In this document: positions 6,770 to 51,450 of the stretch, piece after piece
How positions within the stretch are numbered: position 1 is the stretch's first letter
How the letters are laid out: every line of letters starts with the position of its first letter
The notes under the pieces: model-generated
The model's input: the letters and a program-made list of their open reading frames with translations, nothing else
Told to the model about the DNA's origin: nothing
Database searches by the model: none
From: Warburgia ugandensis
Lineage: Eukaryota; Streptophyta; Magnoliopsida; Canellales; Canellaceae
NCBI GenBank assembly: GCA_035236585.1
Contig: CP141138.1
Location: 26,113,437 to 26,177,436, forward strand
Reading direction: 5' to 3'
Length of the DNA: 64,000 nucleotides
Program-made: the position numbers and the translations under genes

Positions 6770-6781
6770 GCTCTGATACCA
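6770..6781 (-). other. Gypsy primer binding site (tRNA-iMet)
   Basis: The plus strand reads GCTCTGATACCA, the complement of TGGTATCAGAGC, three bases from the LTR edge. This fixes the element's orientation as minus. Confidence 0.88.
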
Positions 6782-8819: not shown

Positions 8820-10170
8820 ATTGGGCATGCTAAGGAGAAAGGTTGAGTTTACTTCCTCTAGGCTATTGGTGGAAATGAGACTATCTCAAGCATGGCTTGC
8901 TCATACAAGTAATTTGATATTTTACTTTGGCACAAATGGCTTGGTCACCCTTCACTCTCTACCATGCAAATTTTTTTCCCTTCATTTGATTTCAATAAAA
9001 TGCTTTGTCATTATGAAATCTGTGAAATGGAAAAACATCATAGAACAACTTTTTCTTCAATAAATGAAAGATCTTCCTTACCTTTTAGCCTTATTCATCA
9101 TATTGATGTTTGGGAAAAATAAAAAATTTCTAACATCTCAGGTTCTCTCTGGTTTGTTTCCTTTATTGACAATTGTACAATGTTAATATGGGTTTATCTT
9201 CACAAAAACAAATTTGAAGTCAATTAGATTTTTCCCATCTTTCATAAGATGATTTCCAATCAGTTTGGTGCCGAAGTCCATATTCTTCGTTCATATAATG
9301 GAAGGGAATGCTTCAACAATGACTTGATTTCTTATTTCCTGAAAGAAGGAATTATTCGACGGTCCTCATGTTCAAATACTTGACAAAATGAGGTTGCTGA
9401 GAGAAAAAACCGTTAGCTACTTAAAGTTATCGAAAGTCATCTTGACTGCCTCTTATTTAATCAACCGGCTACCCTCTCGAATCCTTAATTTGCAAATTCC
9501 AGCGAGTTATTTATCTTTTTTCTTCATGCAAAAACTTTGGGATTCTTTCTCCTAAAGTATTCGGGTGTTTCTCTTTTGTGCATATTCATGATCACCATCG
9601 AACAAAACTTGATCCTAGAGCTTTAAGTGTGTCTTTCTTGGCTACTTATCTAGTCAAAAGGGGTACAAATGCTATTACCTATCAACAAAAAAGGTCTATG
9701 CTACCATGGATGTCAATTTTGTTGAAAGTCAACCATATTTCTCACACAATTATCTTCAGCGGAAGAACATATATGAAGATAATAAGAAATATATACTTCT
9801 CTTATTGATCAAAGACCTAACAAACCCTGAATCTTCTTCTTCCCTACCACCCATTTCTTTCTCGCCAACTATTTCAACATTCGAACATGAACAGATTGAA
9901 CTGACTGAAAATATGCTAGCTAGTGATTTAAATCAGCCATCTCCATTCAAGGAGGAAAGAGTCTTTACCAGAACTGATGCATACTCAAACATCTTAACTG
10001 GAACTAGCTAACACTAATCCTCTCTTAGTTGATTCACGTGCTTCCAATGATAATATATTCCTATCCATTGCCCTTAGAAAAAAAGAAAAGAACTTGCACC
10101 CAACATCACATATCTAAGTTTATGTCAAATCGTAAGCCTTCTCCTACTTCTTCACCTTAGAAATTCTGAA
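8820..10170 (+). pseudogene. Copia integrase region remnant
   Basis: Plus-strand pieces between 8930 and 9560 show the GAG-pre-integrase and integrase core of copia. Among them is the stretch around 9280-9350 with the QFGAEVHILRS-NG type signature. The rest is the linker before reverse transcriptase. Strongly eroded. Confidence 0.6.
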
Positions 10171-20174: not shown

Positions 20175-20277
20175 AGATACAGTTTTGCCTGCAGCATCAT
20201 CCTGCAGGATTTTATACAAAAAGGATGGAGCAAAAAAGAAGGAAGACTGATTGATACATTCCCTTGGCTGCACCCAT
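20175..20277 (-). pseudogene. LINE-type RNase H relic, downstream piece
   Basis: This continues, on the minus strand, the RNase H relic at 28559-28905, from which it is separated by the copia element. The two meet at the target duplication CCCAT (20273-20277 and 28559-28563). The assignment rests on contiguity, as the protein signal here is weak. Confidence 0.35.
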
Positions 20278-20536
20278 TGTTGAATATTTCTTTATTGATG
20301 AAAACCTTCATTATACTAAGATCATCCATGTCAAATCATCAAGAATAATAGACTAGATGCGGAAGCGTACCTGAATCCATGAGAACGGATGTGATTCATG
20401 AGTCTTGTGGTTCTTGATCTTCCAAATTGAAGCGTATGAATTTTCTAGAGAAGGGGTTTTCCCTTTTCTGACGATGGGATGTTAGAAAAGAATTATATGT
20501 ACAATTTGGGGACCATAACCTTTTATAACTACATAT

Positions 20537-20744
20537 ACTTTTCTTATTTCTAATTTCAGCCCATCATGAATTAGAAATCAGAAATTAGGACTCTACACAT
20601 AATAAAGCTCATACTTTGTGAGATGACTTAAGCCCATTTGACTTTTCTTATTTCTAATTTCAGCCCATCATGAATTAGAAATCAGAAATTAGGACTCTAC
20701 ACATAATAAAGCTCATACTTTGTGAGATGACTTAAGCCCATTTG
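20537..20744. repeat. 104-bp tandem duplication
   Basis: The two copies are virtually identical, starting ACTTTTCTTATTTC at 20537 and 20641. Identity between copies far exceeds that to the other LTR, so the duplication is younger than the insertion. Confidence 0.93.
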
Positions 20745-20757
20745 ACTTTAAACCTTA

Positions 20758-20759
<2 letters not shown>

Positions 20760-20836
<77 letters not shown>
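20760..20836. repeat. (CA)n microsatellite
   Basis: An uninterrupted CA tract of about 38 units inside the copia left LTR. The other LTR has a different sequence there. Confidence 0.97.
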
Positions 20837-20837
<1 letters not shown>

Positions 20838-21274
20838 CACTTTATAATTGTATATCACAATACAACCTTATGAGCTCAAAATCTTTACTATCATGATAAA
20901 AAAAAAACATCTCCAAACAATCTCATCTATTAATAATTTTAATATAGGATCAAGGCGATCTTCGTTATATGTATTGTAACTAAATTCATCCATGGTCACA
21001 TATATCAACACAACCAAACGACATAGATCAAGTATGGCTGTGTAGCATGGAATTACATGCAATGTGATCTAAACATACCTATTTCCAACTGGTCCAACTT
21101 TATTATTTATGAGATCATATTAAAACTAAATCAGAGTAAAATATTAAGTTGAAAACTTTATTTCTGCAGAAAATATCCATAAACATAAGATGTGCCTGAA
21201 ATAGAAAAGCATATAAATGCAAACTCCCACTAATCTAGTATATCCTCAAATTTTACAACACTCATATGAGCAGT

Positions 21275-22672
21275 TGACACACATCCCGTGAAGGATCTAC
21301 AATAACGATATTGTCTCGTACAGGGCCCGCAGGTCCCACGGGTTTTGTTTCTCCCCCCTACAGGGGAAAACCGGCCGTTACTGTGAGAGGCGATCTTGCC
21401 CCTTATCACCCAGCCCAGCTCCCCTCTCCAGGTGGCATGGGACGAACTCTCAACCGTCCCCCCCTCAACCTTAGCCGTTTCGCCACCCCTCACAAGGCCA
21501 TGGTACCTCATGATGCCTGAGCTAGCAATGATAGATACCATTTGACACACCCCCCGTAAAGGGTCCACAGTAACGATATTGTCCCGTATAGGGCCCGTAG
21601 GTCCCACGGATTTTGTTTTTACCCCCTTACAGGGGAAAACCGGTCATTACTATGAGAGGCGATCCCGCCCCTTATCACCCAGCCCAGCTCCCCTCTCCAG
21701 GCGGTATGGGACTAACTCTCAACCGTCCCCCTCTCGGCCTTTACCACTTCGCCACCCCTCACAAGGCCATGGTACCTCACGGTGCCTGAGTCGGCAAGGG
21801 TAGATCTCTCCCCCTTAGGGGACACACCCTCTTGTGAGGCCCATATGTTGTTAGCCACCCATCACCACGAGGAGACTGGCTCTGATATCATTTGACACAC
21901 CCCCCGTGAAGGGTCCACAGTAATGATATTATCCCGTACAGGGCCTGCAGGTCCCATAGGTTTTGTTTCTCCCCCCTTACAGGGAAAAACCGGTCGTTAC
22001 TGTGAGAGGTGATCCCACCTCTTATCACCCAACCCAGCTCCCCTCTCCAGGTAGTATGGGACTAACTCTCAACTGTCCCCCCTCGGCCTTCACCACTTCG
22101 CCATCCCTCACAAGGCCATGGTACCTCACAGTGCCTGGGCCAGCAAGGGTAGATCTCTCCCCCTTAGGGGACACATGCCCTCGTGTGAGGACCATATGCG
22201 GTTAGCCACCCATCACCATGAGGAGACTGGCTCTGATACCATTTGACACACCCCCCGTGAAGGGTCCACAGTAACGATATTGTCCCGTACAGGGCCCGCA
22301 GGTCCCACGGGTTTTGTTTCTCCCCCCTTATAGGGGAAAACCGATCGTTACTGTGAGAGGCGATCCCGGCCCTTATCACCCAGCCTAGCTCCCCTCTCCA
22401 GGCGGTATGGGACTAACTCTCAATCGTCCCCCCCTCGGCCTTCGCAGCTTTAGCACCCCTCATAAGGCCATGGTACCTCACGGTGCCTGAGCCGGCAAGG
22501 GTAGATCTCTCCCCCTTAGGGGACACACGCCCTCGTGTGAGGCCCATATGCGGTTAGCCACCCATCATCACGAGGAGACTGGCTCTAATAGGGGAGAAAC
22601 AAAACCTGTGGGACCTGCGGGCCCTGTACGGGACAATATAGTTATTGTCGACCCTTCACAGGGTGTGTGTCA
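21275..22672 (-). mobile_element. Tandem TRIM-like LTR array nested near the copia 3' coding end
   Basis: Four LTR-like units begin TGACACAC at 21275, 21543, 21893 and 22244. They are followed by a partial LTR in inverted orientation (22589-22672), so both outer edges read TGACACAC inward. Between LTR units lie short internal domains of about 85 bp. Read on the minus strand, each has a primer site (TGGTATCAGAGCC or close) next to one LTR and a purine tract (AAGGGGGAGAGA) at the other side. There is no coding capacity. GC content is clearly higher than the surroundings. GCAGT (21270-21274) and GTAGT (22673-22677) are the likely target duplication. Classified as TRIM by structure; the family name is unknown to me. 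Confidence 0.8.
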
Positions 22673-22689
22673 GTAGTATACTCATGAAA

Positions 22690-23183
22690 GACCTTGGGTG
22701 GTAGTCCCTTAGTAAGCGGATCCGCAACCATGGAGTCTGTGCTAATATGCTCTATATACACTTGACCACTCTGAACTCTTTCCTTAACAACTAGGAACTT
22801 GATGTCTATATGCTTTGACTTCGTCGAGCTTCTGTTTTTGTTGGAATATAAGGCTGCTAACTTATTGTCACAAAATAACTTAAGTGGCCTTTCAATTCTA
22901 TCCACAATTAGCAGCCCTATGACAAAATTTCTTAGTCATATTCCATGATTGGATGCCTCATAACATGCTATAAACTCAATTGCCATGGTGGAAGAAGCAA
23001 TGAGTGTCTCCTTAGCACTCTTCCAGGAGATAGCTCCTCCAGTAAGTAGATAGATATAGCCTGAAGTGGATCTTCGATTGTCTTGGCATCTAACAAAGTC
23101 GGAGTCGAATACCCAATGATCTCTAACTTATCCGACCTCCCGTATGTGAGTATATAATGTTTTGTTCTCTGAAGATACTGCAT
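22690..23183 (-). pseudogene. Copia RNase H remnant
   Basis: Minus-strand peptides LFCDNKLAALYSNK and TKHIDIKFLVVKERVQSGQV with ADPLTKGLPPKVFHEY (about 22680-22870) are the C-terminal half of copia RNase H. QYLQRTKHYILTYGRSDKLE (about 23120-23180) is its N-terminal half. The TRIM array interrupts just after KVFHEY. Confidence 0.88.
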
Positions 23184-23279
23184 GACCCATTTGGCTACTT
23201 TCTAATGATCTATTCCTGGATTGCTCAAATATCTACCTAACATCCCAAAAATGTACGCAATATCCGGATGAGTACAAAC

Positions 23280-24281
23280 TTAAGCATACATTAGACTTTC
23301 CACTGTTGAAGCATAAGGAATCTTTTGCATTTTCTTAGTTTCAAAATCATTCTTGGGGCATTGATCAAGACTGAACTTGTCTCCCTTAGCAACAGGGGTG
23401 TCTCCTGGTTTACAATCTTGCATGCCAAATCTCTTAAGTACCTTCTCAATATAACTCTTTTGTGATAATAGAAGAATACCCTGAGAGTAATCTTGATGTA
23501 TTTGAATCCCCAATACAAAAGATGAGTCCCCAAGATCTTTCATCTCAAATTTCTTTGATGGAAATCTCTTAGTTTCATACAATAAGCCTATATTATTGCT
23601 GGCAAGTAGTATGTCATTGACATATAAAACTAGGAAAATGTGTTTACTCCCACTAAACTTGTGGCATATACAATCATTAACCGCATTCATCTCAAAACCA
23701 AACAAGATAACAACTTGATGGAATTTGTAATACCATTGACAGGAAGCTTGTTGAAGCCCATAGATGGATTTCTTTAATTTGCAAACCATATTCTTTGCAT
23801 TTCCAGACACAAAGTTTTCTGGCTGCACCATATAAATCATCTCATTAATGTCACCATTGAGAAATGCAATCTTTACATCCATCTAATACAACTCAAGGTC
23901 AAAATGTGCCACTAATGCTATTATTGTCCTAAAAGAGTCTTTTGATGAAACTAGAGAGAAAGCTTCATTATAATCAATGCCCTCCTTTTGAGTGAAGTCC
24001 TTTGCAATAAGACGAGCCTTATATCTCTCCACATCACCCTTTTAATCCCTCTTGGTTTTAAATATCCATTTGCAACCAATAGGCTTTGCACCTTCAGGCA
24101 ATGGGATGAGTTTCCAAACATCATTGTCTTTCATAGAATTAATCTCTTCATTCATGTCATCAATCCACTTTTGAGAATTAGTACTTTGCATAGCTTGATG
24201 AAAGTTGATCGTATCATGTTCCACCAATCCAATGTCATCCTCATGTTCTTGGAGAAATATGATATAATCATCAGAAATCAC
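23280..24281 (-). pseudogene. Copia reverse transcriptase remnant
   Basis: From right to left on the minus strand: GAKPIGCKWIFKTKRD (about 24050), MDVKIAFLNGDINEMIYMVQ (about 23825-23882), KLKKSIYGLQQASCQWYYKF, and VLYVNDILLASNN (about 23600), the catalytic box region. These are the classic copia RT blocks. Confidence 0.9.
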
Positions 24282-24649
24282 ACTTCTCCTCTCTCTAGTG
24301 GATCTTCTTAATGCATTTGTTCTTGAGGTTGTTGAGTTTGTTCTTCAGAAATAACCTGTTGACCTTGATTAGGGAGATTTTTAACATTGTCTTGTGGTTC
24401 TGGTATTATTTCTTCAACAATATCAAGAATAGGAGCATGATCATTGTTAATAACAATTATAGGAAGAGAAATAGATTCCTCTTCAAAGGCAAAGTCTTTA
24501 ACCTTATCTCTCCCCCCCAAACTCAATATCCTCAAAGAATAGGGCATTTCCCATCTCAAAGAAGGACCTGGTTATGGGATCATAAAATTTACACCTCTGA
24601 GACTATTCAAAGTACCCAACAAAATGGTTGCTAACCGTTCTTGAGTCCA

Positions 24650-25900
24650 GTTTCTTTTCACTTGGCCTATAAGGCCTTGTCTCAGCTAGACAACCCCAAA
24701 TGTGTAAATGCTTTATATTGGGCTTCTTGCCCGTCCATAATTCATAAGGAGTTTTAGCTGCTGCCTTAGTTAGAACTCTATTAAGGATGTAAGTTGTAGT
24801 TTTTAGTGCCTCTCCTTAGAGTGAATTTGGAAAGATAATATGACTAATCATACTCCTCACCATATCTTTTAATGTTCTATTTTGTCTCTCTGTAACACCA
24901 TTTATGCTAGGATTTTCTGGTATGGTGTACTATGGGACAATATTGCACTCCTCTAAGAATTTGGCAAATGGCCTTGGACGTTGTTCACCTGATCCGTCAT
25001 ATCTGCCATAGTACTCACCACCATGGTTAGATCGGACAGCCTTAATGCTTTTGCCAAGTTGGTTCTCAACTTCAGCCTTGAATGCCTTAAACACGTTCAG
25101 TGATTGAGACTTCTCATGAATGAGATAAAGGTAGTCATAATGTGAGAAATTGTCTATGAACGTAATAAAATATTGTTGACGATTCCATGAAGTCGTAGGG
25201 AATGACCCACAAATATCCGTATATATTAGTTCTAAGACGTCTGAAGATCTGTTAGCACCTAATCTCCTTATGTTTATCTGCTTCCCCTTAATGCACTCAA
25301 CATAGACTTGAAAATCTAACAAATCAAGGGGATTAAGAATTCCATTTGACATAAGTTTTTCAATTCTTTGTTTAGATATGTGCTTTAAATGCTTGTGCCA
25401 GAGTGACGCAGAATTCTCATTGGTTAATTTGCATTTTATGCCACGTGAACTCACATGCAAGGTTTCATTAAAAGAGAGAATAGTATCAAACAAATAAAGG
25501 TTATCATAAAAAGACAAAGAACCGGTACCAACAATATTTGAATTCAGAAAAAGATAAAACTGATTATTTTCAAATGAACAAGAATAACCAAATTTGTCCA
25601 AGATAGAAATAGAAATCAAATTTCATCTAAAAGATGGTACAACATATGTCTCTTTCAAATCCAAATATATTTTCTTTAATAATAACCTAAAGTTTCCTAT
25701 CACCTTAGCCTCCACTGATTTGCCATTGCCCATATAGATGAATTTTTCAGCATCATTTGGCTTTCAACAACTTAGGCAACCCTGCATAGACACACTTATG
25801 TGAGTAGTGGTACCAGAATCTATCCACCAAGTGTGTCTTGGTGCTGAAGCTAAATTAACCTCAGAACAAACCAAAGTGAGAAGCATACCTTTCTTTGCAT
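24650..25900 (-). pseudogene. Copia protease, GAG-pre-integrase and integrase remnant
   Basis: The frame at 24930-25619 shows the GAG-pre-integrase zinc finger region (LWHKHLKHISKQRIEKLMSN). The integrase core follows, with ELIYTDICGSF, YFITFIDNFSHYDYLYLIHE and GGEYYGRYDGSGEQRP. The protease part lies at about 25650-25850. Fossil. Confidence 0.88.
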
Positions 25901-26720
25901 GCCAAGCGTGATATTTGGCACACTCCCTCTTCATATGTTCAGGATTCTATCAAAAGTAACACCCAAATTCCTTATTTTATTTCTTTTGCTGTTTCTTTTA
26001 AGGTGGACCACTTGCAGCTTCTTTATCCTTCTTCCTTTTCATGTTCTTGTCCTTAGAGGTACTTGCCATATGAGCACTTTCAGTCTTTTCTTATTTCAGC
26101 CTTTCCTCTTCTTGTACATAATGAGAAATGAGCTCATTAAGAGACCATTTGTCCTTTTGGCAGTTATAACTGATCTTAAATTGACTAAATTGTGTAGGAA
26201 GAGAAATCAAAACTAAATGCATGAGCAAATCCTTAGACAGCTCTAGCTTTAATGCCTTTAGTTTTGAAGCAAGATGAGACATCTCTATGATGTACTCTCT
26301 TATATTTTCTTTTCCTTTATACTTCAACTAAATCAAGTTCGACAGAATCTTACTTGTTTCAGCCTTATTGTTTTTAGCAAAATGCTTTTCAATTTCCTTA
26401 AAGAACTAAGAACTCCTTGGCAATAGTTACCTTTTCGGACACAGCGTCCCTAAAGGTTTCTAGAATTCCATGCTTCATGATCATAAGACTCATGCGATTT
26501 GAACAATCCCACTTCTCAAAGTCCCGTTTTTCCTCATTGGAACTTTTGTTCGTAAGAGCAGTGGGTTGTTCAATCCTTAGCGCAAGGTCTAGATCCATAC
26601 AACCAAGAACGATCATGACGTTATCTTTCCATTCTTTAAAGTTGGTCTCATTCAACATAGGAATTGAATTGATGTTGGCAGATGTAACAGAAGCATATGC
26701 ATTAACTGAGAATAGAACAA
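25900..26720 (-). pseudogene. Copia gag remnant (UBN2-type)
   Basis: The minus-strand peptide LNETNFKEWKDNVMIVLGCM (about 26600-26655) is the gag start block. ENIREYIIEMSHLASKLKAL and DLLMHLVLISLPTQFSQFKI (about 26100-26310) are the UBN2 core. A knuckle-like region follows near 25930. Confidence 0.85.
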
Positions 26721-26724
26721 AACA

Positions 26725-28077
<1,353 letters not shown>

Positions 28078-28089
28078 GCTCTAATACCA
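28078..28089 (-). other. Copia primer binding site
   Basis: The plus strand reads GCTCTAATACCA, the complement of TGGTATTAGAGC, two bases from the LTR edge at 28092. It is a slight variant of the tRNA-iMet site. Confidence 0.85.
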
Positions 28090-28091
28090 AT

Positions 28092-28558
28092 TGTTGAATA
28101 TTTCTTTATTGATGAAAACCTTCATCATACCAATACCATCCATGTCAAATCATCAAGAATAATAAACTAGATGTGGAAGCGTACTTGAATTCATGAGAAA
28201 GGATGTGATTCATGAGTCTTGTGGTTCTTGATATTCCAAATTGATGTGTATGAATTTTCTGGAGAAGGGGTTCTCCCTTTCCTGGTGATGGGATGTCAGA
28301 AAAGAATTATACATACAATTTGGGGACCATAACCTTTTATAACTGCAAACACTTTTCTTATTTCTAATTTCATTCCATCGTGAATTAGAAATCAGAAATT
28401 AGGTCTGCACACATAATAAAGCCCATACTTTGTGAGATGACTTAGGCCCATTTAACTTTAAACTTTATCAGATCACTTTTAATTTAGGCCAAACCTATAT
28501 GATAGCATATAATATACAATTATATGTGTGTGTGTATATACGCATCCAAAATCTAACA
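28092..28558 (-). repeat. Copia 5' LTR
   Basis: It starts TGTTGAATATTTC and ends CTAACA on the plus strand, directly before the CCCAT duplication. 467 bp, the simpler of the two LTRs. Confidence 0.9.
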
Positions 28559-31083: not shown

Positions 31084-31650
31084 TATCAGCTAATTTTTTA
31101 GGGTTTTTTGCAGATTTGCCACTCGTTTTTTATGCTTTTGTTAAAATATCCAAACTTTTTAACTTTTTGTAGATTTTTCATTAAGTTTTGCAAAATTTGC
31201 AAAAATGCCATTCCATTAATTTTTGTAAAATGACGAAAATACGCTTCTTCTCTTCTCCCTGTTTAAACATAAGCCTGAAAACAGATGTTTGTAGAAGAAG
31301 AACGACGACCGGTGAGGAATCCGCCATATCAGCTAATTTTTTAGGGTTTTTTGCAGATTTGCCACTCGTTTTTTATGCTTTTGTTAAAATATCCAAACTT
31401 TTTAACTTTTTGTAGATTTTTCATTAAGTTTTGCAAAGTTTGCAAAAATGCCATTCCATTAATTTTCCACCGTTATTTTTTGTAAAATGACGAAAATACG
31501 CTTCTTCTCTTCTCCCTGTTTAAACATAAGCCTGAAAACCTGAAAACAGATGTTTGTAGAAGAAGAACGACGACCGGTGAGGAATCCGCCAGGCTTTACT
31601 CGCGCTCCGCCCAGGTTACAAAACGTTTGTATTGTCAGTAACCTGAATCC
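31084..31650 (+). repeat. MULE left TIR, tandemly duplicated
   Basis: Two copies start at the shared TATCAGCTAATTTTTTAGGG (31084 and 31327), period 243 bp. The second continues to about 31650 as full TIR. The duplicated unit includes the flanking target site, so it arose after insertion. The second copy has two short extra stretches relative to the first. Confidence 0.9.
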
Positions 31651-32170
31651 ATTCCCTCCCGTCCTAAGTAGTCCTCAATCCTCCGAGGCACTTCGGTATT
31701 ATCTTTCATCCATGTGAATGATAGCTGCAGATTTTTCAGGATTTTGATAACATAAAACAGTGCAATTGCCTCAGCCTCTGCAGAATCTTTATACCCGATT
31801 GGGCTAAAGTAGTCAACTATCAATGATCTTGCCTTGAGTCCACCCACCTAACCAATTGCCACGTGAAGATCCATCAAAATTAAGCTTGTAGGATCCAGAA
31901 TTTAGGTGTTTCCATGATGCTGCGGGTAGCTTCTTCAGCCAACACTTCTCTCCCATTGATCCTTAGTTGTTGCATGGTAAATCCTCGAAACTCTGTTTTG
32001 GCAAGTGCCCAGCTACATACGGACAAAATAATTGTACTCCATAATGTTTCTTTGTGTCACCTTTGTCCCGTGAAGATTCTAAGATTTCGTTCTTTCCACA
32101 TTGCCAAATTGTAGCAACATAGAACATCCTTCATAAGCAGCTTGTTCTCTTTGAAACATTGAACAAATGC
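31635..32170 (-). pseudogene. Captured plant LINE fragment (zf-RVT tail and RNase H start)
   Basis: Minus-strand translation gives LCCYNLAMWKERNLRIF (about 32090-32140), the region after the zf-RVT domain. Then comes NSGSYKLNFDGSSRGNWLGG (about 31840-31900), the RNase H start block, and DSAEAEAIALFYVIKIL (about 31750-31790). Several frame shifts lie between these. The fragment runs into the left TIR. A typical passenger of a Pack-MULE. Confidence 0.75.
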
Positions 32171-32565
32171 CGCCCAATGAAATGTTTGACTGCTGAGAAT
32201 GACAGAACCCGTCTAACCTGGACACATAAAATTCTACTCCCACGTTTTTTTATCCCAACTTGCAATGAAGATGAAGATGAAGAGAACATCATGAAAAAGC
32301 CAATGGTCTTGGTGGTACCTTTATATTCTAGATGTGATGAAAGTTAGTAAATTCAGACTGAATCGCTTGAAGATTGATGTTAAAGAGCGCACTTTTTGTT
32401 GTAACTTCCCTTATGATTCCCAGTTCCAAATGATTCGATGTTGCTACATAGGTCTAATAATTTGTTAGAGAGATGAGATCCGGGTGCCTCTGCCAGTGTT
32501 GTCGATGCCTTGTCTATACTCTTCTTTTAACATTGGGCCTCCAAATAACTGTTTCTCCAACGATT
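32171..32565. other. MULE interior, unassigned
   Basis: Non-coding as far as can be seen. Contains a (GAAGAT)n-like patch near 32265-32285. Source unknown. Confidence 0.4.
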
Positions 32566-32861
32566 GGATAGAGGTTACAGACAATACACATGTTTTGTAA
32601 CCTGGGCGGAGCAAGGGTGGAGCCTGGGCAGATTCCTCACCGGTCGATCGTCGTTCTTCTTCCACACAAACATCTGTTTTCAGGCTTATGTTTAAACAAG
32701 TAGAAGAGGAGAGGGTATTTTTGCCATTTCACAAAAGAAAAACGGTTGAAAATTAACGGAATGGCATTTTTGCAAAACTTAATAGAAAATCTACAAAAAG
32801 TTAAAATGTTTGGACATTTTAACAAAAACGTAAAAAAGGAGTGGCAAATCTGCAAAACACC
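32566..32861 (-). repeat. MULE right TIR
   Basis: It is the reverse complement of 31327-31650 with scattered differences, about 296 bp. The shared landmark is CCGGT followed by GAGGAAT on the minus strand. Confidence 0.88.

Positions 32862-33272: not shown

Positions 33273-33275
<3 letters not shown>
32871..33275. other. Intergenic, nothing recognised
   Basis: No open frame or repeat boundary is seen. Confidence 0.6.

Positions 33276-33350
<75 letters not shown>
33276..33350. repeat. (GA)n microsatellite
   Basis: About 37 perfect GA units. Confidence 0.98.
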
Positions 33351-49262: not shown

Positions 49263-49954
49263 CTAGTATGACAAACAAAAAAATATTAATTTTTTCTTCC
49301 AACAACTTCTACAATTACTTTCACCTGCACGTTTACTTGATTTCTTCGTATTCTTTCCCCACAAGACATTAATATTTTCAACCTGCTCCAATACCTGACT
49401 TCTTGTCAACATCTTCAAAGGTGTATTTGTCTCTACATTCTTGTTAAATTCTTCCTTCTTAGAACGATATGGATAGTCTCTATGCAACCATCTTCTGTGC
49501 CTAAGGAATGTTATTTTCCTATCATGTTTAAGTCGTACAGTACATGTTTGATCATTACAGATAGGACAAGCATCGTATCCCTTCACAGTGCATCTTGACA
49601 AATTACCGTATGCCTGGAAGCCGCTTATTGTCCACAACAATATAGCCTTTAGGGTGAATGACTCTTTCCTGTATTTGTCGTATGCTTTAACGCCTATGTC
49701 TCATAACGTCTTAAGATCATTAATCAAGGGAGATAGGTACACGTTAATATCATTCCTAGCTACTTTGGACCCGATATCAACATAGTTAGCATCATGAACT
49801 TTCTCTTCATATATAGAGATGTTGGAAGGTTGTAACAAACTAATATAACGGGCCAACAACTATATCTACTACTCATAGAACCATGAGGATTAATCCCATC
49901 TACATATAATGCAAGACGTAGGTTTCTAGTTTCTTCACCAAAATTAGGCCACAT
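49263..49954 (-). pseudogene. CACTA Tnp2 transposase, C-terminal part
   Basis: The frame 49760-49954 has NLRLALYVDGINPHGSMSSR, YSCWPVILVCYNLPTSLYMK and MLTMLISGPK. The frame 49263-49640 has WTISGFQAYGNLSRCTVKGY, DACPICNDQTC (zinc-binding cysteines) and FLRHRRWLHRDYPYR. These are consecutive blocks of the Tnp2 catalytic region. The stretch between them (49641-49759) is shifted out of frame. Confidence 0.9.
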
Positions 49955-50054
49955 GAAGTCTATGAGTTTCCATGTTGGGTTATTTGCTGGATGGCATGAA
50001 AAGCTATATCTACTTTGTCATTGGCATGCCACACTAATTTATTCGTTGTTTCTG

Positions 50055-50882
50055 TTATACAAAACATTCTTTTGAACCTTGTAATAGGGGAAAGGACCAT
50101 AGAACCTTTGCAGGAACACTTGTAATTGTCTTAGTTGAATTCTTCTTTAACTTCCAACTTGGCTGTCCACAAGTTGGGCATGTAGTTTTATCCTTGTGTT
50201 CCTTCCTATACAAGATGCAATCATTGGGACACGAACGTATCTTCTCATACTTCAATCTTAGTGAAGCCATGGTTTTCTTTGCCTCCCATGTGGACCTCGT
50301 CAATTTATTATCCTTTGGTAGCATCTTACCTACTACTTTCAAGATTTTTGTAAAACCTTGATTTGAAAAACCAAATCTTGATTTCACATTGTAAAGTTCT
50401 ACCACTGCTGGCAGCTTGGTACAATCTTTATACTCAAGGTACAATGGCTGATCAGCTTCCTCTAATGTAGTGTGAAATTGTTTAGGGTCATCCTGGAAGT
50501 CATCATGTCCATCTTGAAATATTGGTACAGTTGTACTACTATCTCCAACACTTCCTATAGTGTCTTGATCATATATTCTAGGCCTTGTAGAGGGCCTATG
50601 TGAAAGTGCTTCTCTATGCCAAATCCATGGGTGGTAGCTTTTGTCGATTCCATTAAAGCACAAGTGTTCTCTCAACACCCTTACAATTAATTTTTTTAAG
50701 TTTCCACATTTTGAGTATGGACAATGAATATGATTACGATCAACACCTGCCTTAAGTGCAAACTCTATGAAATTTTCTGTACCCTCATCATATTCTTTCA
50801 ATGCCCTTATTGTAGACATCCAAGTATATTTGTCCATTATCATAAGAAATAAAGTAAATTTGCTTGGAGACTTGTAAGACAT
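50055..50882 (-). pseudogene. CACTA transposase-associated domain and Tnp2 start
   Basis: A 275-codon open frame, the longest in the window. Residues 17-100 are the transposase-associated domain (YTWMSTIRALKEYDEGTENF, HCPYSKCGNLKK, YHPWIWHRE), a DNA-binding module with paired cysteines. From residue about 165 the Tnp2 family begins (LYNVKSRFGFSNQGFTKIL, KIRSCPNDCILYRKEHKDKT, CPTCGQPSWK). It probably opens at the second Met (MDKYTWM), as family members begin this way. The frame ends before the next Tnp2 block. Confidence 0.9.
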
Positions 50883-51450
50883 GAAAAGATTAGGTTAGGC
50901 ATTTTACCAAACACTAGATATACATGAATTAGAAGTATTCAAAATAACTACATTTCATAGATATTTCCAATTAACAACGAAAAAAAAGCAAATTATGATA
51001 GACACATTCATGAATGAAATCAACTTTCAAAAGACAATTTCTAAATCACAACCTTGTAAAAATTCTTCAAATATGCATAATAGTACGTATGAGATGAACA
51101 TAGAGATACCAACACTCAAAAATCAATATTGACCGCGAATTTGTGAATGTAATTCCAATTCACGCATGTAGGATTTGGTTTAGAGTAGGGAAACAGAAAT
51201 CTGGTTTAGTTTTTTAGCACAGATAATAAACACAAAGTGAATAGGCATGGCGGAAGTTGACAAAATAATTCTTAAAGCAAAAGTACAATTGAAGTTAATT
51301 TCAAAAAAAGGACTTTAAATGTATGCACTTTTAAAGTCGTTTTTAGAAAGCAACTTAAAATGTGTGCAATCTTAAAGTAGTTTTTATGGAAACAACACTT
51401 TTAAAGTCGTTTACATAAAAATGACTTTTAAAGTCATTTTCTACAAACGA

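Follow-up and report, generated by a model that had tools for sequence, protein, structure and literature searches.

Tandem TRIMs are common in plants, with 129 subfamilies in 35 of 43 plant genomes in the survey of Gao et al. (2016, PMC4717578). The legend to Fig. 2C of that paper describes two inverted TRIMs inside one duplication (TSD: CTTCA) in maize Zma-SMART, and the smallest plant TRIM given in its text has a total length of 233 bp with LTRs of 52 bp. Wukong of maize has copies in which the number of LTRs is three, four, six or seven; the LTRs usually point the same way, and the copies have 5-bp duplications (PMC4528315). In Cassandra, an array may contain up to 12 repeats, and template switching has been put forward as one source of such arrays (PMC7215508). 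Helenus-1_SMo of Selaginella has an internal portion of 85 bp according to section 3.4 of PMC10886601, and the Selaginella family is the only plant family of the Helenus type in that account. A 2025 study found duplication-flanked tandem LTR elements to be widespread; its abstract favours a single insertion, and its discussion treats tandem insertion and later recombination as both possible (PMC11899658). Unequal LTRs have been attributed to misalignment and template switching (PMC9278108), which decides nothing for the array discussed here.

We identified such an array within a window of 64 kb, the whole stretch of DNA analysed, which is taken to be plant DNA from the types of element that it contains. 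It is very probably a TRIM array that inserted once, with two U5 ends, into a copia element. The features of the locus are as follows.

21275..22672, minus strand: whole inserted array, consisting of an inverted U5 piece and then internal domain plus LTR four times, one internal domain being nearly lost
21275..21536, minus strand: LTR unit u1, outermost, at the 3' end of the element in sense; ends in ...GTGTGTCA at 21275
21537..21542, minus strand: internal-domain remnant between u2 and u1, placed by alignments
21543..21805, minus strand: LTR unit u2, upper edge approximate
21806..21892, minus strand: internal domain i2, from a primer site one base off, TGATATCAGAGCC, to the purine tract AAGGGGGAGAG
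21893..22157, minus strand: LTR unit u3, the unit named in the preliminary description, upper edge approximate
22158..22243, minus strand: internal domain i3, with an intact primer site, TGGTATCAGAGC, whose first base on the minus strand is 22241, and the purine tract AAGGGGGA
22244..22508, minus strand: LTR unit u4, upper edge approximate
22509..22590, minus strand: internal domain i4, immediately adjoining the inverted piece and starting part-way through the primer site (TATTAGAGCC)
22591..22672, plus strand: inverted, R-U5-like copy of the final 82 bp of the LTR, giving the same terminal sequence at both array ends
21270..21274, no strand: GCAGT, one copy of the probable 5-bp target-site duplication
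22673..22677, no strand: GTAGT, the other copy of the probable duplication, 4 of 5 bases identical
20272..28490, minus strand: host copia element with gag, integrase and RT matches, outer limits approximate
20272-20645 and 28086-28459: LTR pair of the host copia element, 91.2% identity

Tandem TRIM arrays and short internal domains are already known, and there is a precedent in maize for inverted TRIMs. Like the TA-TRIM Zma-SMART, as figured in PMC4717578, the array has LTRs and short internal domains alternating in one 5-bp duplication, and one of the figured cases is inverted. In arrangement, it differs in that only an 82-bp piece is inverted, and this piece replaces the 5' LTR. Wukong shares the multi-LTR copies and 5-bp duplications, but its LTRs usually lie in one orientation (PMC4528315). 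Cassandra has similar long tandem runs of LTR and small internal domain (PMC7215508), whereas no 5S match was obtained in the array. The retrozymes are likewise non-autonomous plant retrotransposons (PMC4918200), and the array differs from them in having no hammerhead match in Rfam. Both of these candidates, Cassandra with its 5S rRNA-like sequence and the retrozymes with their hammerhead, were rejected after Rfam returned no match at E≤1 over 20500-23500. Helenus-1_SMo has a 5-bp duplication in addition to its 85-bp internal portion, but its LTR measures 120 bp (PMC10886601) against 262-265 bp here, and the array contains no supported tRNA-like sequence. Among the matches listed in literature searches, we recognised no title or abstract on a plant TRIM that ends in an inverted partial LTR, and a full-text search with six words of 15-21 bases from the array returned no papers. 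Array patterns searched one at a time in viral_contigs and genome_contigs gave no matches; these hold viral and prokaryote DNA, with little bearing on plants.

Repeat finding and alignment divided the array into four LTR-like units of 262-265 bp alternating with internal domains, of which three measure 82-87 bp and one retains a few bases. At the high-coordinate end stands an 82-bp piece in the opposite direction, a copy of the 3' (U5) end of the LTR. Tandem repeats were detected at 21534-22590 (period 351, 3.0 copies, 89% matches, score 1742) and at 21274-21790 (period 269, 1.9 copies); the spacing of u1 and u2 is 269 instead of about 351 because the internal domain between them is nearly lost. 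The ends of that deletion apparently share a short ATC, as read by eye. Unit 21893-22243 aligned to three more places besides itself at 85-90% identity and, inverted, to 22672-22583 (87%, E 2e-26), and inverted arms of 82-90 nt in the array are 83-91% complementary. These repeat matches, both tandem and inverted, are far beyond chance. Pairwise identity among the LTR units is 86-91%, and none of nine stop-to-stop open reading frames of at least 60 aa in the array matched a Pfam family at E≤0.1.

The preliminary description had proposed four LTR-like units in a GC-rich array, and both points are borne out, the units by tandem detection and self-alignment and the composition by a G+C content of 57% against 35-37% in the flanks. 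Its internal domains of about 85 bp are present in three cases (21806-21892, 22158-22243 and 22509-22590), but the fourth is down to the few bases at 21537-21542. It had also called so tiny an internal domain unusual, a view not supported by the lengths of Helenus-1_SMo (PMC10886601) and of the smallest TRIM (PMC4717578) quoted above. The closing partial LTR in the opposite direction was confirmed as an inverted piece; since the sense strand is the minus strand, it stands at the 5' end of the element, in place of the 5' LTR.

In sense, an LTR ends in ...GTGTGTCA and is followed by AA, then the primer site TGGTATCAGAGCC, and then a purine tract, and the order of parts is inverted U5 piece, i4, u4, i3, u3, i2, u2, remnant, u1. 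The primer site TGGTATCAGAGCC is intact in i3 and one base off in i2, and some 60 bases further on come the purine tract AAGGGGGAGA and the next LTR. A primer site and purine tract had been claimed for the internal domains, and both are there. We take the primer site TGGTATCAGAGC to be the initiator tRNA-Met site used by plant LTR elements. Two other words of this kind, at 476 on the plus strand and at 6781 on the minus strand, probably belong to other LTR elements. The bases after AAGGGGGAGA do not form a TG start in u2-u4, and u1 has no such tract before it. With no U3 end exposed, the array does not define the 5' limit of the LTR, and no LTR start of the TG type was located.

Several of these features are those by which a TRIM is recognised: direct LTRs around a short non-coding internal domain in a unit of less than 1000 bp, a primer-binding site adjoining the LTR (TGGTATCAGAGC, minus strand, 22241, with two bases between it and the CA end), and a target-site duplication of 4-6 bp, here 5 bp with 4 of 5 bases identical and with flanks in one copia frame. 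As in a TA-TRIM, at least three LTRs and at least two internal domains lie within one duplication. A complete LTR at both termini, which is our own reading of the LTR/internal notation used for that group, is not found here, the 5' terminus being the inverted 82-bp piece.

A satellite-like repeat, or a local rearrangement merely resembling LTRs, would also be tandem and could be as rich in G+C, and it would fit both the lack of a TG at the LTR start where the purine tract ends and the result of an alignment search at E 0.01, which found no further copy of the array in the 64-kb window. The primer site two bases past a CA end, the purine tract, and the copia flanks that share one frame with a 5-bp duplication speak against it; the primer site, the duplication and the copia frame led us to disfavour this reading, which appears highly unlikely.

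The occurrence in u2 and u3 of TGGCGAAGTGGT, an A-box-like word with one mismatch to the consensus, raised the question whether the LTR of this TRIM carries a pol III promoter derived from a tRNA, as in the Helenus type. No Rfam match was obtained at E≤1 and no tRNA was found by ARAGORN. The best sense-strand pairs of A and B boxes were matched or beaten by 235, 76, 230 and 252 of 300 shuffles in u1 to u4, respectively, and all four units have a TTTT stretch further on in the same LTR. With the Rfam, ARAGORN and shuffle tests all failed, this identity is extremely improbable.

The array adjoins a copia element on the same strand, four of whose seven translations matched Pfam families: Retrotran_gag_2, gag_pre-integrs with rve, and RVT_2 twice, the rve match and one of the RVT_2 matches scoring under the Pfam cut-off. 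The two stretches nearest the array, 22642-22935 and 22936-23127, matched no Pfam family. The interrupted stretch is presumably RNase H, by its motifs. The preliminary description had placed the array at the very end of the copia RNase H region; a position near the end of the copia pol gene stands, and the RNase H label depends on those motifs. The two LTRs of the copia element are 91.2% identical over a 374-bp core, with 7.2% non-CpG differences; this core was used in place of a wider alignment running past the LTR edges (85.1% over 429 columns).

The C-terminal stretch of the copia gene runs ...ADPLTKGLPPKVFHEYT up to the array and resumes with TAHMSVVKFEDILD beyond it (HEYT / TAHMSVV). Once one 5-bp copy (ACTRC) is discounted, the frames of the two flanks agree, the flanks having been translated separately and the shared frame worked out by hand. 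Their agreement suggests that probably no copia sequence was lost and that five bases were doubled. The array is nested at the 3' end of the copia pol gene, probably with five bases (ACTRC) duplicated. The proposed duplication GCAGT/GTAGT differs at one base, a 4 of 5 match, and agreement of at least 4 of 5 bases between the 5-mers on either side of a 1398-bp interval occurs at 1378 of 62592 window positions (2.2%). At this rate of chance matches the duplication alone is suggestive, and the reading frame carries part of the weight. Together, the duplication and the agreeing copia frame make probable the entry of the array as one unit, as had been proposed.

The copia LTR next to the array contains an exact 104-bp tandem duplication (20537-20749, 2.0 copies, 100%) and a (CA)39 run at 20759-20836, and the other copia LTR, near 28086-28470, has one copy of the 104-bp stretch. 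An exact duplication within a copia LTR pair that has diverged by 9% would be either recent or an assembly effect. A long (GA)n run at 27895-28005 lies just before the other copia LTR, and a matching run is found at 33275-33350.

Among 261 ungapped LTR columns in the array, 203 are invariant, 53 are singletons, four are split 2:2 and one falls in none of these classes. The singletons (19 in u1, nine in u2, 15 in u3 and 10 in u4) are mostly C to T or G to A (43 of 53). Most differences being private to one unit, most of the change would have been independent in each unit, after a near-identical early state. Two of the 2:2 columns pair u1 with u3 and two pair u1 with u4; none pairs u1 with u2, and there is no agreed grouping. 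A star-tree simulation with rates fitted to the unit data predicted 6.3 ± 2.0 double-hit columns, so the four observed hold no signal of grouping beyond chance. These patterns point to a concatemer that was already formed at the time of insertion or shortly afterwards.

Non-CpG differences between units range from 5.7 to 9.4%, with 8.5-9.4% between u1 and u2-u4 and 5.7-7.0% among u2-u4; the corresponding figure for the copia LTRs is 7.2%. A nested insert would be younger than the copia element, and the transversion counts (seven in 4x261 sites in the array units and nine in 2x374 in the copia LTRs; Fisher p 0.31) are compatible with this, the difference not being significant. As the copia element necessarily predates its insert, there is no need to assume that the array was old on arrival. 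Unit u1 stands apart: 20 alignment columns, including one gap, set u2-u4 together against it, and at three of the 20 u2-u4 have A where u1 has C or G. This argues against a pure star history and fits also an amplification of the inner units at a later stage, or differences among the units that predate the insertion.

Such an amplification is the core of one alternative, in which a simpler insert (inverted piece, internal domain, LTR, internal domain, LTR) afterwards gained inner internal-LTR units through unequal exchange. The closer mutual relationship of u2-u4 and their 20 columns against u1 would follow from it, as would two states that the inverted piece and u1 share against u2-u4, and PMC4528315 suggests unequal crossing over as the mechanism in Wukong. 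The disagreement of the four 2:2 columns would require the amplification to have occurred almost in one step, and the inverted end itself is left unexplained. We consider this history rather unlikely.

Both termini of the insert are U5 ends and the 5' LTR is absent, in accord with the earlier remark that the two array ends read alike. The junction with the inverted piece falls within the primer site, whose first three bases are missing there; it lies near the point where minus-strand synthesis ends. Over the 82 bp common to five copies, u1 and the inverted piece agree with each other and differ from u2-u4 at two columns, one of these differences being a transversion. At a third column both depart, to different bases, and at one other column the inverted piece agrees with u3. 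In 20000 runs of simulated independent decay, two shared changes including a transversion arose in the u1 and inverted pair in 0.4% and in some pair in 2.0%; with no transversion demanded, the values were 6.6% and 29%. The rates in this simulation were set by hand, the question was framed after the columns had been seen, and the pair rests on two columns. The outer U5 ends may have a common source that differs from that of the inner ones. That source may be the 5' R-U5 of the parent RNA, copied twice, or the resemblance may reflect later amplification of the inner units, and a single copy cannot separate the two.

The explanation that we favour is a failure in reverse transcription. It seems reasonably likely that a tandemly arrayed TRIM entered the 3' end of the copia pol gene in a single insertion, as a ready-made concatemer, its second strand transfer having failed; the donor cDNA would for that reason have lacked a 5' LTR. 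Minus-strand synthesis normally stops at the primer site and awaits the second strand transfer. Here, the 3' end of the minus strand would instead have switched to a minus-strand strong-stop DNA as template and been extended as far as the U5 end of that DNA. The product would have no 5' LTR, an inverted R-U5 joined at the primer site, and U5 at both termini, and such two-U5-ended DNA could be used by integrase, which we infer was supplied in trans and inserted the concatemer. The particular switch to strong-stop DNA is a tentative proposal, somewhat more doubtful than not. It predicts the features seen, with the exception of the three missing primer-site bases at the junction, which it does not predict by itself. 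Under this proposal the outer U5 ends would both have been copied from the 5' R-U5 of the parent RNA, in which case the states shared by u1 and the inverted piece are expected. The 82-bp piece would then be R plus U5 and its inner edge (GGGGAGAAAC) would mark the transcription start; no TATA-like box was seen about 30 bp before this proposed start when the alignment was read by eye. The RNA of u4, the only unit folded, was predicted to be more stable than 200 of 200 shuffles (z -2.96), with a predicted stem of 11-12 bp between ACAGUAACGAU and AUCGUUACUGU. We speculate that such a stem might favour template switching.

Two U5 termini would be produced equally by an inverted (head-to-head) TRIM dimer within one duplication, if a later deletion took most of one arm and left 82 bp by the primer site of the next unit. 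The maize Zma-SMART figured by Gao et al. (2016, PMC4717578) is a precedent, and deletions do occur in the array, as shown by the lost internal domain between u1 and u2. The dimer needs a second event, however, with a breakpoint that happens to lie inside the primer site, and alignment across the window found no inverted stretch of a missing arm beyond the 82-bp piece. On balance this origin, too, appears unlikely.

If the failed strand transfer that we favour is correct, the locus is a datable fossil of that event, lying within a copia gene that reveals both limits of the insert. It bears on the choice between single insertion and later recombination left open in the discussion of PMC11899658: recurrence of the inverted edge in other copies would favour single insertion, whereas one case is a curiosity, and the explanation is built on a single array copy whose duplication is imperfect (4 of 5). 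A bolder proposal is that the element regularly integrates by two U5 ends, the jump to strong-stop DNA replacing the second strand transfer and the fixed inner edge recurring from copy to copy as the mark of the transcription start. This would make it a retrotransposon whose inserts carry terminal inverted repeats, and we regard it as very doubtful.

Other elements were observed in the window. A PDB search with 50058-50894, the second transposase stretch of an element at 49266-50894 on the minus strand, gave no matches. This element has matches to Transposase_21 (tnp2) and Transpos_assoc, and we take it to be a CACTA-type DNA transposon. An SH3_retrovirus domain at 9619-10008 on the plus strand probably belongs to another copia-type polyprotein. 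Another repeat in two directions consists of a tandem pair of about 245-265 bp (91%) at 31084-31654, with an inverted copy about 1 kb away at 32562-32861 (80-82%).
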